DNA of 64,000 bases from a virus. The stretch's first letter is position 1, and each line of letters opens with the position of its first letter. The stretch covers positions 1 to 64,000 of IMG/VR virus record IMGVR_UViG_3300025687_000029. One strand, given 5' to 3'. The translations under genes were made by a program, and so were the position numbers. Positions 27,277-44,363 of this stretch are shown one piece after another. The notes beneath the pieces are model-generated. The model did not search any database and was not told the origin of the DNA. It saw only the letters and a list, made by a program, of their open reading frames with translations.

Positions 27277-27285
27277 GTAATATAG

Positions 27286-30260: not shown

Positions 30261-30435
30261 AGCCAGTAGAAGATTTACAAGTTACAAAACAGCTAAAAAG
30301 TTTGCTGAATTTGTAAAAGGAGAATTAAAAGATTTACGTAAAATAAAAGGGTCTAAATCTAATTTTAAAGTTATTTATGATAAGAATTACGTAAAATCTA
30401 TACCCATAACTGATTGGGATGAACAATTTTATTAA
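30253..30435 (+). CDS. Basic 60-residue protein
   Basis: Lys/Arg-rich (MNKASRRFTSYKTAKKFAEF; LRKIKGSKSNFKVIYDKNYV), with a C-terminal beta segment. Could bind nucleic acid. Function unknown. Confidence 0.5.
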   Translation: MNKASRRFTSYKTAKKFAEFVKGELKDLRKIKGSKSNFKVIYDKNYVKSIPITDWDEQFY

Positions 30436-30568
30436 CCAAAAAACTCAATAACTTCCCAAGATGTTGAGGGCACCAGTTTCTTTGATTAACACACGAACCA
30501 ATATATAGGTACAGGGGATGGAATCAAAGTTTTAGGTGTAAAACACAATCAATTAAAATTTAACAATC
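30436..30568 (+). promoter_or_regulatory. Structured 5' leader of the 50-residue gene
   Basis: CTCAA/TTGAG (with inner CTT/AAG) is followed by CACC ... GGTG (30471-30474/30535-30538) enclosing CTTTGATT/AATCAAAG (30480-30487/30522-30529). The symmetric stems suggest a folded RNA leader or riboregulator. Nothing else is visible in the stretch. Confidence 0.4.
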
Positions 30569-32696: not shown

Positions 32697-32870
32697 ATGT
32701 ATACAGAAGAACAAGCAAAAGAATTAGCTGAAAACTTAGACATTCTTTCTAATGGAAGTGTTCAATATATAGTAGAATTTTTATTATCTAATAAAGATAG
32801 AACTATAGAAGAAATGATAGAGCATACTAACTATGCAGTTGATATGCTGATAAACTGTATTGAAGAATAA
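32697..32870 (+). CDS. 57-residue helical protein
   Basis: Begins MYTEEQAKELAENLDILSNG, then YIVEFLLSNKDRTIEEMIEH. Acidic and helical. Last gene before the large structured non-coding stretch. Function unknown. Confidence 0.5.
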   Translation: MYTEEQAKELAENLDILSNGSVQYIVEFLLSNKDRTIEEMIEHTNYAVDMLINCIEE

Positions 32871-32881
32871 AGTGCCATATT

Positions 32882-33650
32882 GCACATACTCATCCTAAAT
32901 GGTTGCCATGCTATAATTATTAGGTATGTGCTGTCAACACTTTAATACAATCTTTTGGTGGTTGGTTTACGTGGAGAATATGGATTGGGGAAAGTATTGG
33001 TGAAAGGCCAATAATTAGATTGTATTTTAAACAATGATAATGTTAGCAAATCGTTGTACCTAAAAAGGTTTTATAGCTAACGGCAAACTCTAAATTAACA
33101 CCAAGAGTTATTTTGGTCATAAGTAGATTCATTTCATCTACATTGCGTCCCACTCTGAAAGGAGATTAAGCTGAATTGACAGTCTCGCAGTAATTTATTA
33201 GAATTTTATAATCAAGATTTAGGAGGTGTTATAGGGGATATAGTAATTAAGTGGAAAATCAGGGTCTTCATCGTCGCTGTTGTCTGTTCGAGCCAGGCTA
33301 TCCCCACTAATTAACAATATTCGATAGGGGTATGGAACATCACTATACTAATTCTAGTTAATGCGAATTATATAAAATGGAAACCTTTATATACTAGATT
33401 TAAAAAGGTGAAAACTTGGTAATAAATTAATCTCCTTTTACCAAGGATCATTATAGATATAGACTTTGGAGCCATATTAACTTATTTCTATAGATAAATC
33501 TAGTGAGTAAGTTTCTAAGTTATTATGGATGATAGAACGATAACTGAAGCTAGTTAAACTAAGAGTAAAATAAACTCCAAGTAGTTAGTCTACAATTGTC
33601 TCAATAAGATGGTTTAGGGTTTAATCCAAATTGAGAACTCTTAGTTTATT
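32882..33650 (+). ncRNA. Large ornate structured RNA locus with embedded tRNA-like element
   Basis: This 830-base gene-free stretch is dense in perfect stems. They are GCACATAC/GTATGTGC (32882-32889/32924-32931), AATACAATCT/AGATTGTATT (32944-32953/33017-33026), and a pseudoknot of CAATGAT/ATCGTTG (33032-33038/33050-33056) with GTTAGC/GCTAAC (33042-33047/33076-33081). Others are AACTCT/AGAGTT (33086-33109), GTAGAT/ATCTAC (33123-33141), ACCTTT/AAAGGT (33383-33409) and CTTGGTAA/TTACCAAG (33415-33445). TAAACTAAGAGT/ACTCTTAGTTTA (33555-33566/33637-33648) encloses two hairpins and is followed by a T-run. A tRNA-like element sits at 33234-33306. Size and tRNA association recall GOLLD/ROOL RNAs. Confidence 0.55.
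33234..33306 (+). other. tRNA-like structure with perfect acceptor and T-arm
   Basis: Acceptor GGGGATA/TATCCCC (7 perfect pairs), T-arm GTCTG TTCGAGC CAGGC, discriminator A then CTA. The 41 bases between acceptor and T-arm equal the canonical spacing, but I find no convincing D-stem or anticodon stem. It may be a pseudo-tRNA or a purposeful tRNA mimic inside the larger RNA. Confidence 0.55.
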
Positions 33651-33700
33651 TTTAATAAAAAACTAATTAACAATTAAATATTCACAAAAAATTTAAAGTT

Positions 33701-33985
33701 ATGAATGTATTTTATTCAATGATATTACTAACACCTAAGCAATTTATTGATAAGTTTAAAATTTATGATACAATTGTTTTAGGTGCATTAAATGAAACTA
33801 ATGTAAAAGGGCTAAGTAATGATTTTTACGTAGATAAAGTCTTACCTAAAGTTAGAGAATCAATACCTAATTTAAGTATTGCTGCGAAGCCAATTACTAA
33901 AGACAGAACCCTATGGCTTATCTCTACTAAAAATTTAGATAAAGAGAATATAAAACAATTAAATATAGTATTAACTAAAATTTAA
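33701..33985 (+). CDS. Unknown 94-residue protein
   Basis: MILLTPKQFIDKFKIYDTIV then ISTKNLDKENIKQLNIVLTK. First gene after the structured RNA locus. Basic alpha/beta. Not recognised. Confidence 0.45.
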   Translation: MNVFYSMILLTPKQFIDKFKIYDTIVLGALNETNVKGLSNDFYVDKVLPKVRESIPNLSIAAKPITKDRTLWLISTKNLDKENIKQLNIVLTKI

Positions 33986-37209: not shown

Positions 37210-37295
37210 GGTCCAGAAGTTCATATGGTAGAATGTTGCCGGGTATACGTTAAATAATTATGGCAGAGGTATAGGTTCAAATCCTATCTGGACTA
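37210..37295 (+). tRNA. Anomalous tRNA with 21-base anticodon loop
   Basis: Acceptor GGTCCAG/CTGGACT (first pair G-U), D-arm GTTC ATATGGTA GAAT, stem TTGCC/GGCAG, T-arm ATAGG TTCAAAT CCTAT, discriminator A then CTA. The anticodon stem encloses 21 bases (37241-37261) instead of 7, so no anticodon can be assigned. It may carry a 14-base insertion, an intron-like segment, or be a tRNA mimic. Confidence 0.6.
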
Positions 37296-42521: not shown

Positions 42522-43097
42522 ATGAAAAAATTAAGTACATTATTTAAAAAAGATCCTAATGATTTGGGAAAAGTAATAAATGAAATTAATCCTGAAAATC
42601 AATGGGTATTTGAAAATGAAGGTATACCTACTCGTAAATTTGATGGTACTGCTTGTATGATACAAGATAATATTCTTTATAAAAGATATGATTGTAGAAT
42701 TGATAAAATTACAGGTAAATATAAAAAACCAATACCAGAAGGGGCAATACCATGTCAAGAAGCAGATAAATTAAGTGGACATCATCCTCATTGGATTAAA
42801 TGCGATAGAAATAATCCTTCTGATAAATATCATTGGATAGCTTTTGATGCAGAACAGAGAAATTTACCTAACGGTACTTATGAGCTATGTGGCCCTAAAG
42901 TTCAAGGTAATCCTGAAAACCTTTCTACTTATCACTTAATTAAACATGGAGAAGTAGAGTTAATAATAAATGACCTTTCATTTGAAGGAATTAAGGAATA
43001 TCTTAAAATTCATAATATTGAAGGTATTGTATTTCACCATGTAGAAGATGATAGGATGTGTAAGATCAGAAAGTCTGATTTTGGAATTAAAAGATAA
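42522..43097 (+). CDS. RNA ligase-like nucleotidyltransferase (DUF5565/RLIG1-like)
   Basis: 191 residues. PTRKFDGTACMI supplies motif I (Lys-x-Asp-Gly, the adenylated Lys). YELCGPKVQGNPE matches motif III/IIIa, NIEGIVFHHV motif IV (EGI/V) and CKIRKSDFGIKR motif V (K-x-R-K-x-DFG). The order and spacing fit the compact RNA-ligase family related to vertebrate RLIG1. Such enzymes seal RNA breaks and can repair tRNAs cleaved by host anticodon nucleases. The neighbour is DNA polymerase; target unknown. Confidence 0.75.
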   Translation: MKKLSTLFKKDPNDLGKVINEINPENQWVFENEGIPTRKFDGTACMIQDNILYKRYDCRIDKITGKYKKPIPEGAIPCQEADKLSGHHPHWIKCDRNNPSDKYHWIAFDAEQRNLPNGTYELCGPKVQGNPENLSTYHLIKHGEVELIINDLSFEGIKEYLKIHNIEGIVFHHVEDDRMCKIRKSDFGIKR

Positions 43098-43100
43098 ATA

Positions 43101-44363
43101 ATGAACTTAACACACTTCAAGAACGATAGACCTGAATTTCAGAAATATTGTGAAGATTTATGGTTTGAAAATGATTGTGTAGGTTCTTTTTTATTAGGTA
43201 CAGGTACAGGTAAAAGTAAAATTGCTTTAGATTGTTTAAATAGATTGTTTAATAAAAACCAAGATTTAAGAGTTGTAATTGGAATTCCATTAATCAGATT
43301 AAAAGAAGATGTATGGATTAATGAAATGAAGAAATGGGATTATGATTACATGATAGACAAAGTAGAAATACATTGCTATCAGACTCTTAGATCTTGGAAA
43401 ACTGAAAAGATTGATCTATTAATAGGAGATGAAATTGATGAATGTATATCTCCTGTTAATCTTAATCTGTTTAAAAACAATCAAATAGACAAGAGACTAT
43501 TATTAACTGCTACTGCATTTGATGAAAAAAGAACTAAACTTGAAGAATTAGCTCCTGTATTATTGGAACTATCTAGAGAAGATGCTCAAGAATTAGAATT
43601 TATTAATTATTCTAATCATTGGATTATTGAATATGAATTATCTACTATAAATAATATACCTGTTAAATATCCGAAGAATGGTAAAGAACAAGTATTTTAC
43701 ACTTCTGAGAAGAAACAGTATGATTATTATGATAATTCAATGAAACAATATGGAGCTAAACTTATGGATAGAGGATTTAAAGTAGGAGCTAACATATTCA
43801 AGTTAATAGGATATTTAAAAAGTAAAAAAGATGAGCAATCTAAAGCTTATCTGACTTGGGCTTATAAATATTCTAATGCAATGAGAGGAAGAAAGAATAT
43901 TCTTCTAAATAATCAAACCTCAATAAGCTTAACTCATAAGCTAGGTAAAGATATTCTTAATGGTAAGACTGGAATTAAAGATCCTAAAATTCTAATATTT
44001 AGTGAAAGTATAGAGCATATTGAAAAGATATGTAAAAATACTATTCATTCAAATAAAACTTTAGAAGAAAATAAAGAAGTAATAGAAAACTTATCTAAAG
44101 GTAAAATAAGAGCCGCTGGTGCATGTAAAGGACTTACTGTAGGTGTTACTATACCTGGAGTGAATTGTGGTATATATGCAGGTTATTTTGGTGCTAAAAG
44201 AGTATTATCACAAAGAGTTGGTCGAACTATTAGAGATGCTACTGCTGACATAGCAAATAACTACTATCTTGTTGCTAAAAATACTCAACAAGAAGAATGG
44301 TTAAAGAATATGTTAGAAGATATTGATAAGGAATATATTAAATATTTAGATTATAAACAATGA
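43101..44363 (+). CDS. Superfamily 2 DEAD-like helicase
   Basis: 420 residues. GTGTGKSKIALDCL is Walker A (motif I), DLLIGDEIDECISP is motif II, LLLTATAFDEKR motif III, and LSQRVGRTIRDATAD motif VI with the Arg finger. The long insert between RecA domains holds a charged linker. It is a compact two-RecA-domain helicase or translocase used in replication or repair. Its stop overlaps the next start by four bases. Confidence 0.85.
   Translation: MNLTHFKNDRPEFQKYCEDLWFENDCVGSFLLGTGTGKSKIALDCLNRLFNKNQDLRVVIGIPLIRLKEDVWINEMKKWDYDYMIDKVEIHCYQTLRSWKTEKIDLLIGDEIDECISPVNLNLFKNNQIDKRLLLTATAFDEKRTKLEELAPVLLELSREDAQELEFINYSNHWIIEYELSTINNIPVKYPKNGKEQVFYTSEKKQYDYYDNSMKQYGAKLMDRGFKVGANIFKLIGYLKSKKDEQSKAYLTWAYKYSNAMRGRKNILLNNQTSISLTHKLGKDILNGKTGIKDPKILIFSESIEHIEKICKNTIHSNKTLEENKEVIENLSKGKIRAAGACKGLTVGVTIPGVNCGIYAGYFGAKRVLSQRVGRTIRDATADIANNYYLVAKNTQQEEWLKNMLEDIDKEYIKYLDYKQ

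Follow-up and report, generated by a model that had tools for sequence, protein, structure and literature searches.

To our knowledge, only a few large structured RNAs are known from phages, GOLLD and ROOL among them, and their functions are open. GOLLD has a conserved 3′ region and a less conserved 5′ region, its linker may hold a tRNA, and it lies near tRNA islands (PMC12286853). We analyzed a 64-kb window of a virus record 95,666 bases long, in which a preliminary description had proposed one gene-free stretch as a giant ornate RNA with an embedded tRNA mimic and a possible member of the GOLLD or ROOL class. Like GOLLD, the candidate RNA (~32871 to 33660, + strand) is near 800 nt long and phage encoded, with putative pseudoknots and two predicted helical regions around a linker. 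The variable GOLLD linker can hold a tRNA, and the linker seen here holds a half-tRNA, with tRNA genes within a few kilobases. Unlike GOLLD, it matches no Rfam model beyond chance at E values up to 10, and its embedded element is a degenerate half-tRNA. It shares size class, phage setting, and, putatively, pseudoknots with ROOL, but the ROOL model (RF03087) gave no match in the whole record at E values up to 10. We ran cmscan with all 4227 families of Rfam 15 on the region from 32700 to 33760, again at E values up to 10, and obtained three chance matches only, none of them to GOLLD; at gathering score, no Rfam family was assigned to the stretch. Because Rfam gave no match, we rejected membership in GOLLD, ROOL, or HEARO; a negative Rfam search is one of the three results that the preliminary description had named as together refuting its proposal. 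As a picture of the sequence itself, the ornate RNA with a tRNA mimic that it proposed is fair. The two helical domains and the tRNA-like linker recall the published GOLLD layout, which is a resemblance and not membership. We regard the stretch as a plausible orphan RNA, structured and containing a genuine half-tRNA, that is GOLLD-like in layout only and is known from one sequence.

The capsid protein of this phage is 27% identical to that of Cellulophaga phage phi14:2, and its terminase is ~41 to 43% identical to those of crAss001 and other crAss-like phages. Judged by these two proteins, the phage is crAss-like and distant from every known one. The + strand is the gene strand from 29.7 to 62.7 kb of the window, and the candidate RNA lies on this same strand within the early region, 7 kb upstream of the gene for a family B DNA polymerase (40566). 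The real tRNAs of the phage are located at 27285 and 27619 on the − strand and at 37210 on the + strand, 4 to 6 kb from the stretch. The last of these (37210 to 37295) has a long variable arm and was matched by Rfam at 46.6 bits, and ARAGORN missed it. Elsewhere in the 64 kb, the most extreme + strand window by folding was the start of a helicase-like gene (43101 to 43891), with a z score of −7.8 versus shuffles (0/20).

Neither strand has an ORF of at least 40 amino acids between 32870, where one flanking ORF stops, and 33701, where the next one starts, which bears out the 830-base gene-free stretch first described (32871 to 33700). We counted perfect Watson-Crick helices in 32871 to 33660 and compared the counts with those of 200 dinucleotide shuffles. 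Helices of at least 7 bp within 120 nt were weakly in excess (13 versus 8.0 expected, with 11/200 shuffles reaching 13), while helices of at least 8 bp within 120 nt (8 versus 2.3 expected) and of at least 10 bp within 150 nt (4 versus 0.2 expected) reached numbers found in 0/200 shuffles. The excess sits in stems of 8 to 12 bp, and stems of 6 to 7 bp are near chance, so that the earlier count of at least ten perfect long stems stands only when the near-chance class is included. The eight helices of at least 8 bp are the highest count among 790-nt stretches of the 64 kb (mean, 2.9; runner-up, 7), and each domain carries an excess separately, which 1/60 shuffles reached for the 5′ domain (363 nt) and 0/60 for the 3′ domain (353 nt). 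The strand cannot be assigned from helix counts, since helices that include G-U pairs occur in similar number on the minus strand. Compared with the flanking genes, whose GC content is 0.27 to 0.29, the 5′ domain (0.33) and the tRNA-like element (0.49) are richer in GC, and the 3′ domain (0.27) is not. Promoter-like sites in the stretch are no more frequent than expected by chance, and no terminator-like site was found on its + strand.

The minimum free energy (MFE) of the stretch was no better than that of shuffles (z = 0.02), and local windows fell between −2 and +1. We calibrated this test on known RNAs and obtained z scores of −0.6 for the tmRNAs of phi14:2 and FpV4, −1.5 to −2.7 for other phage tmRNAs, +1.4 for the phi14:2 copy of an RNA that we call family B (described below), and −0.1 to −2.1 for other family B RNAs. 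The energy test is therefore undiagnostic in either direction for these AT-rich, pseudoknotted RNAs, and we dropped folding energy as evidence. A folding energy equal to that of shuffles and the lack of a homologue in the searched records would fit a stretch with no RNA function, being AT-rich filler or a DNA-level site with chance stems and a tRNA remnant. We consider this very unlikely, since none of the 200 shuffles reached the count of stems of at least 8 bp and 830 noncoding bases are costly for a gene-dense phage. The lack of an ORF, the long-helix excess, and a tRNA-like element at tRNA spacing indicate that the stretch probably encodes a large structured RNA. That 32871 to 33660 is one phage-specific structured noncoding RNA, with two domains joined by a tRNA-derived linker, is our preferred reading, and we give it about an even chance; the ordinary folding energy, the lack of a homologue, the unraised GC content of the 3′ domain, the chance-level promoter-like sites, the lack of a terminator-like site, and the similar helix count of the minus strand weigh against it. 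The raised GC content of the 5′ domain and of the tRNA-like element and the RNAs found in gene-free stretches of crAss-like relatives weigh for it.

In the 5′ domain, helix lists gave the stem GCACATAC/GTATGTGC (32882 to 32889/32924 to 32931) and a 10-bp perfect stem, AATACAATCT/AGATTGTATT (32944 to 33026), around a hairpin (32995 to 33001/33007 to 33013), all on the + strand. Downstream lie two candidate H-type pseudoknots, with helices taken from the helix list and the crossing read from the sequence. The first (33031 to 33082) would combine the helix ACAATGAT/ATCGTTGT (33031 to 33038/33050 to 33057), which includes one G-U pair, with TGTTAGC/GCTAACG (33041 to 33047/33076 to 33082), and the second (33086 to 33117) would combine AACTCT/AGAGTT (33086 to 33091/33104 to 33109) with ACCA/TGGT (33100 to 33103/33114 to 33117). 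A hairpin, GTAGAT/ATCTAC, and a GNRA hairpin, CTCT-GAAA-GGAG, occupy 33123 to 33164. Together with a third in the 3′ domain (33403 to 33445), the candidate pseudoknots are sterically plausible as read from the sequence, in agreement with the pseudoknot noted in the preliminary description. The 5′ domain also contains the 12-mer CTGAATTGACAG (33171 to 33182), within which lies the −35-like element of a sigma70-like site with the sequence TTGACA-17-TAGAAT (33176 to 33204).

This 12-mer recurs in a subset of family B RNAs. Family B is a pseudoknotted RNA of ~260 to 470 nt that is conserved in 81 viral contigs (L002 and L208 to L287), which are crAss-like relatives and others of up to 306 kb. Phi14:2 (L002, 2905 to 3370) is the only annotated phage found to carry family B, and the family has no match in Rfam 15. 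In an alignment of 29 members, 89% of cells pair in the named structure, versus 40 to 44% in slid controls, and both bases have changed in 23 of the 46 pairs, a level reached by 0/500 shuffles. A loop-to-strand pseudoknot, TGAGAA/TTCTCA, is nearly invariant, the hairpin modules are swappable, and in several contigs the RNA lies directly after a tRNA gene or near a tmRNA. Family B is thus an RNA family of crAss-like phages with strong support from covariation that is absent from Rfam and has a cultured representative in phi14:2.

The candidate RNA resembles family B in its crAss-like phage, its early-region position, and the exact 12-mer, which also occurs in the family B RNAs of phi14:2, G016, and G018 and nowhere else in the 3.3-Mb set, and which is followed in the window by AGTAAT and TAGA, as in family B. 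It differs in that neither the window nor the remainder of the record contains the family B core (GAGTTCTCAGCAAGTAGTTA ... TAACTACGTGACCCTACTC ... GAGGGTGCTAA). The covariance model of the shared hairpin module is at noise level in the stretch, since it scored 19.3 bits there and 21.5 bits at an unrelated position elsewhere in the record, and the 12-mer overlaps the sigma70-like site. It is improbable that the stretch is a distant family B member that kept this one hairpin and lost the remainder, and kinship of the two RNAs is unproven. Pattern scans with the 12-mer found contig L289 and one unrelated prophage, neither of them like the rest of the window RNA. The L289 stretch (1059 to 1440), in a crAss-sized phage contig, is gene poor, comes straight after a tRNA gene, and has a family B-like module, CATAAAG-CCTGAATTGACAGG-AGTAAT-TAGA.

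The window holds another RNA, here called RNA X (30432 to 30560), in which ~80 conserved bases flank a variable hairpin (AACTTCNCAAG..TTGAGNGCACCAGTTTCTT ... AAAGTTTTAGGTGTAAAA). RNA X is common to at least 11 other phages and has a small ORF downstream, Rfam has no match to it at gathering score, and the 400-nt stretch from 30401 that contains it has a fold z score of −4.6. Family B and, in the window, RNA X are the better-supported novelties beside the stretch.

The tRNA-like element lies at 33234 to 33306 on the + strand. Its 7-bp acceptor, GGGGATA/TATCCCC (33234 to 33240/33299 to 33305), pairs perfectly, and its T-arm, GTCTG-TTCGAGC-CAGGC (33282 to 33298), stands at exact tRNA spacing to the acceptor. 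This signature has a chance of ~4 × 10−4 per 830 nt and is found elsewhere in the 64 kb only at the three real tRNAs. The discriminator A33306 is followed by CTA, as in two of the three tRNAs that the phage itself encodes. The element is therefore like a tRNA in its acceptor, its T-stem of 5 bp with a TTCGAGC loop, its canonical spacing, and its discriminator A. It is unlike one in that the D and anticodon stems, both degenerate, do not form and in that it is called neither by ARAGORN nor by the covariance model for tRNA (E values up to 10). These results show that the element is tRNA derived yet not a tRNA. The T-arm and the 7-bp acceptor at tRNA spacing bear out the tRNA-like element first described, and a true tRNA is ruled out by ARAGORN and the covariance model.

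An acceptor and T-arm with no D stem is also the arrangement of tmRNA, and crAss-like relatives carry tmRNAs and permuted tmRNAs with several pseudoknots, that of phi14:2 in the corresponding early gene-free region. A derived tmRNA that retained the tRNA-like domain and the pseudoknots, which here lie upstream of the element, and that lost its tag frame is nonetheless highly improbable. Neither tmRNA (RF00023) nor permuted tmRNA (RF04321) matched in the record at E values up to 10, and no tag-like peptide ending in small hydrophobic residues was found in any of the three frames of the stretch. Alanine charging requires the alanine identity pair G3-U70, but acceptor pair 3 of the element reads G3-C70. 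Without a model match, a tag, or G3-U70, both tmRNA and permuted tmRNA were rejected.

In the 3′ domain, an 8-bp hairpin, TATATAAA/TTTATATA (33369 to 33393), is followed by a 10-bp perfect stem, ACTAGATTTA/TAAATCTAGT (33393 to 33504), around the third candidate H-type pseudoknot (33403 to 33445), all on the + strand and found in the helix counts and lists. This pseudoknot would pair AAAAGG/CCTTTT (33403 to 33408/33434 to 33439) and CTTGGTAA/TTACCAAG (33415 to 33422/33438 to 33445), and since the 3′ strands share two bases, not all of these pairs are possible simultaneously. The stem CCATA-x-TAACTTA/TAAGTTA-x-TATGG (33472 to 33528) crosses the 33393-to-33504 stem. The 12-bp terminal stem and T-run of the preliminary description are both present: TAAACTAAGAGT/ACTCTTAGTTTA (33555 to 33566/33637 to 33648) is followed by TTTTTAATAAAA, the whole feature extending from 33555 to 33653. 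The stem fits the closing helix of the proposed three-way junction (33555 to 33648), with GTAG/CTAC and TCTCAAT/ATTGAGA (33599 to 33605/33630 to 33636) as its arms.

The sequence CTAATTAACAAT occurs at only two places in the 64 kb, directly after the tRNA-like element (33307) and directly after the closing stem, ahead of the next gene (33663). This repetition would suit a cluster of separate short elements, namely, hairpins of the 3′ untranslated region or leader of the neighboring genes, a decayed tRNA gene at 33234 to 33306, and a small RNA in the 3′ part, as would the promoter-like TTGACA-17-TAGAAT and the D and anticodon arms, which are degenerate like those of a dying tRNA. However, the acceptor and T-arm are perfect while the other arms are lost, which argues for selection on that half, and the helix excess lies on either side of the element. 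We judge such a cluster fairly unlikely.

Beyond AT-rich chance matches, no homologue of the stretch was found among 50,697 phage records or in ~4 Mb of related phage DNA; 46 (35 plus 11) related records were covered. Searches by blastn against the gene-free stretches of related records and by nhmmer over 3.3 Mb likewise gave no homologue, and neither did the later-added loci. One 75% match to 33374 to 33433 in G016 and G017 (E value of 0.002 per record) was taken as chance. The flanking proteins and the capsid protein found no relatives among viral contigs, and a search of genome contigs for relatives returned one 4-kb contig. In the terminase alignment, no relative exceeds 49% identity, and even the nearest ones lack a match to most of the proteins around the stretch.

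If the stretch is a single RNA, it would be made together with the early + strand genes, and its drawn fold would comprise a 5′ domain (32871 to 33233) and a 3′ domain (33308 to 33660) linked through the acceptor/T-arm element. Both domains would contain abundant long stems and pseudoknots. The acceptor/T-arm half of a tRNA is the part recognized by RNase P and RNase Z, so the host enzymes might cut or bind the RNA at this stack. A cut would either separate the two domains or leave the 5′ domain with a tRNA-like 3′ end and an added CCA. The RNA may ultimately serve as a scaffold, a decoy, or a ribosome- or tRNA-linked RNA. If it is built on a half-tRNA, assays with RNase P and RNase Z could test the role of tRNA elements in large phage RNAs. 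Only tentatively do we propose that it represents a new class of large phage RNA, of which it would be the first member seen, with two ornate domains around a tRNA-derived linker as in GOLLD but no relation to GOLLD. It would then be one of several unrecognized large early-region RNAs of crAss-like phages, others being family B and the tmRNAs of these phages.

Crass-like relatives have long gene-free stretches that contain a tmRNA, a permuted tmRNA, or a family B RNA, and several of them have such stretches in the early region, upstream of the gene for DNA polymerase. In phi14:2, another gene-free stretch (1270 to 1983; MFE z score of −2.4), for which no homologue was found, has a tRNA-like element at ~1760 to 1855 in which the D-arm, T-arm, and acceptor are present and the anticodon arm is replaced. 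Permuted tmRNA genes (RF04321) occur in G006 (L133, 14561 to 14794) and G002 (42873 to 43115), and a permuted tmRNA in G012 (~23457) scores below the RF04321 cutoff; other relatives have ordinary tmRNAs. The tmRNA genes of G001 (L128, 46895 to 47435) and G005 (L167, 28479 to 29041) have a T-loop interrupted by an insert of group I intron-like sequence (GTTCAACGACTAG ... GATATAGTCTAATCA) that is 89% alike between the two phages. The tmRNA tag peptides of L214, L284, G018, and G005 look long and end in LAA, MAA, or IAA, and in G018 and G005 a common motif, ANMxKVxSLIN, can be seen by eye before this end.
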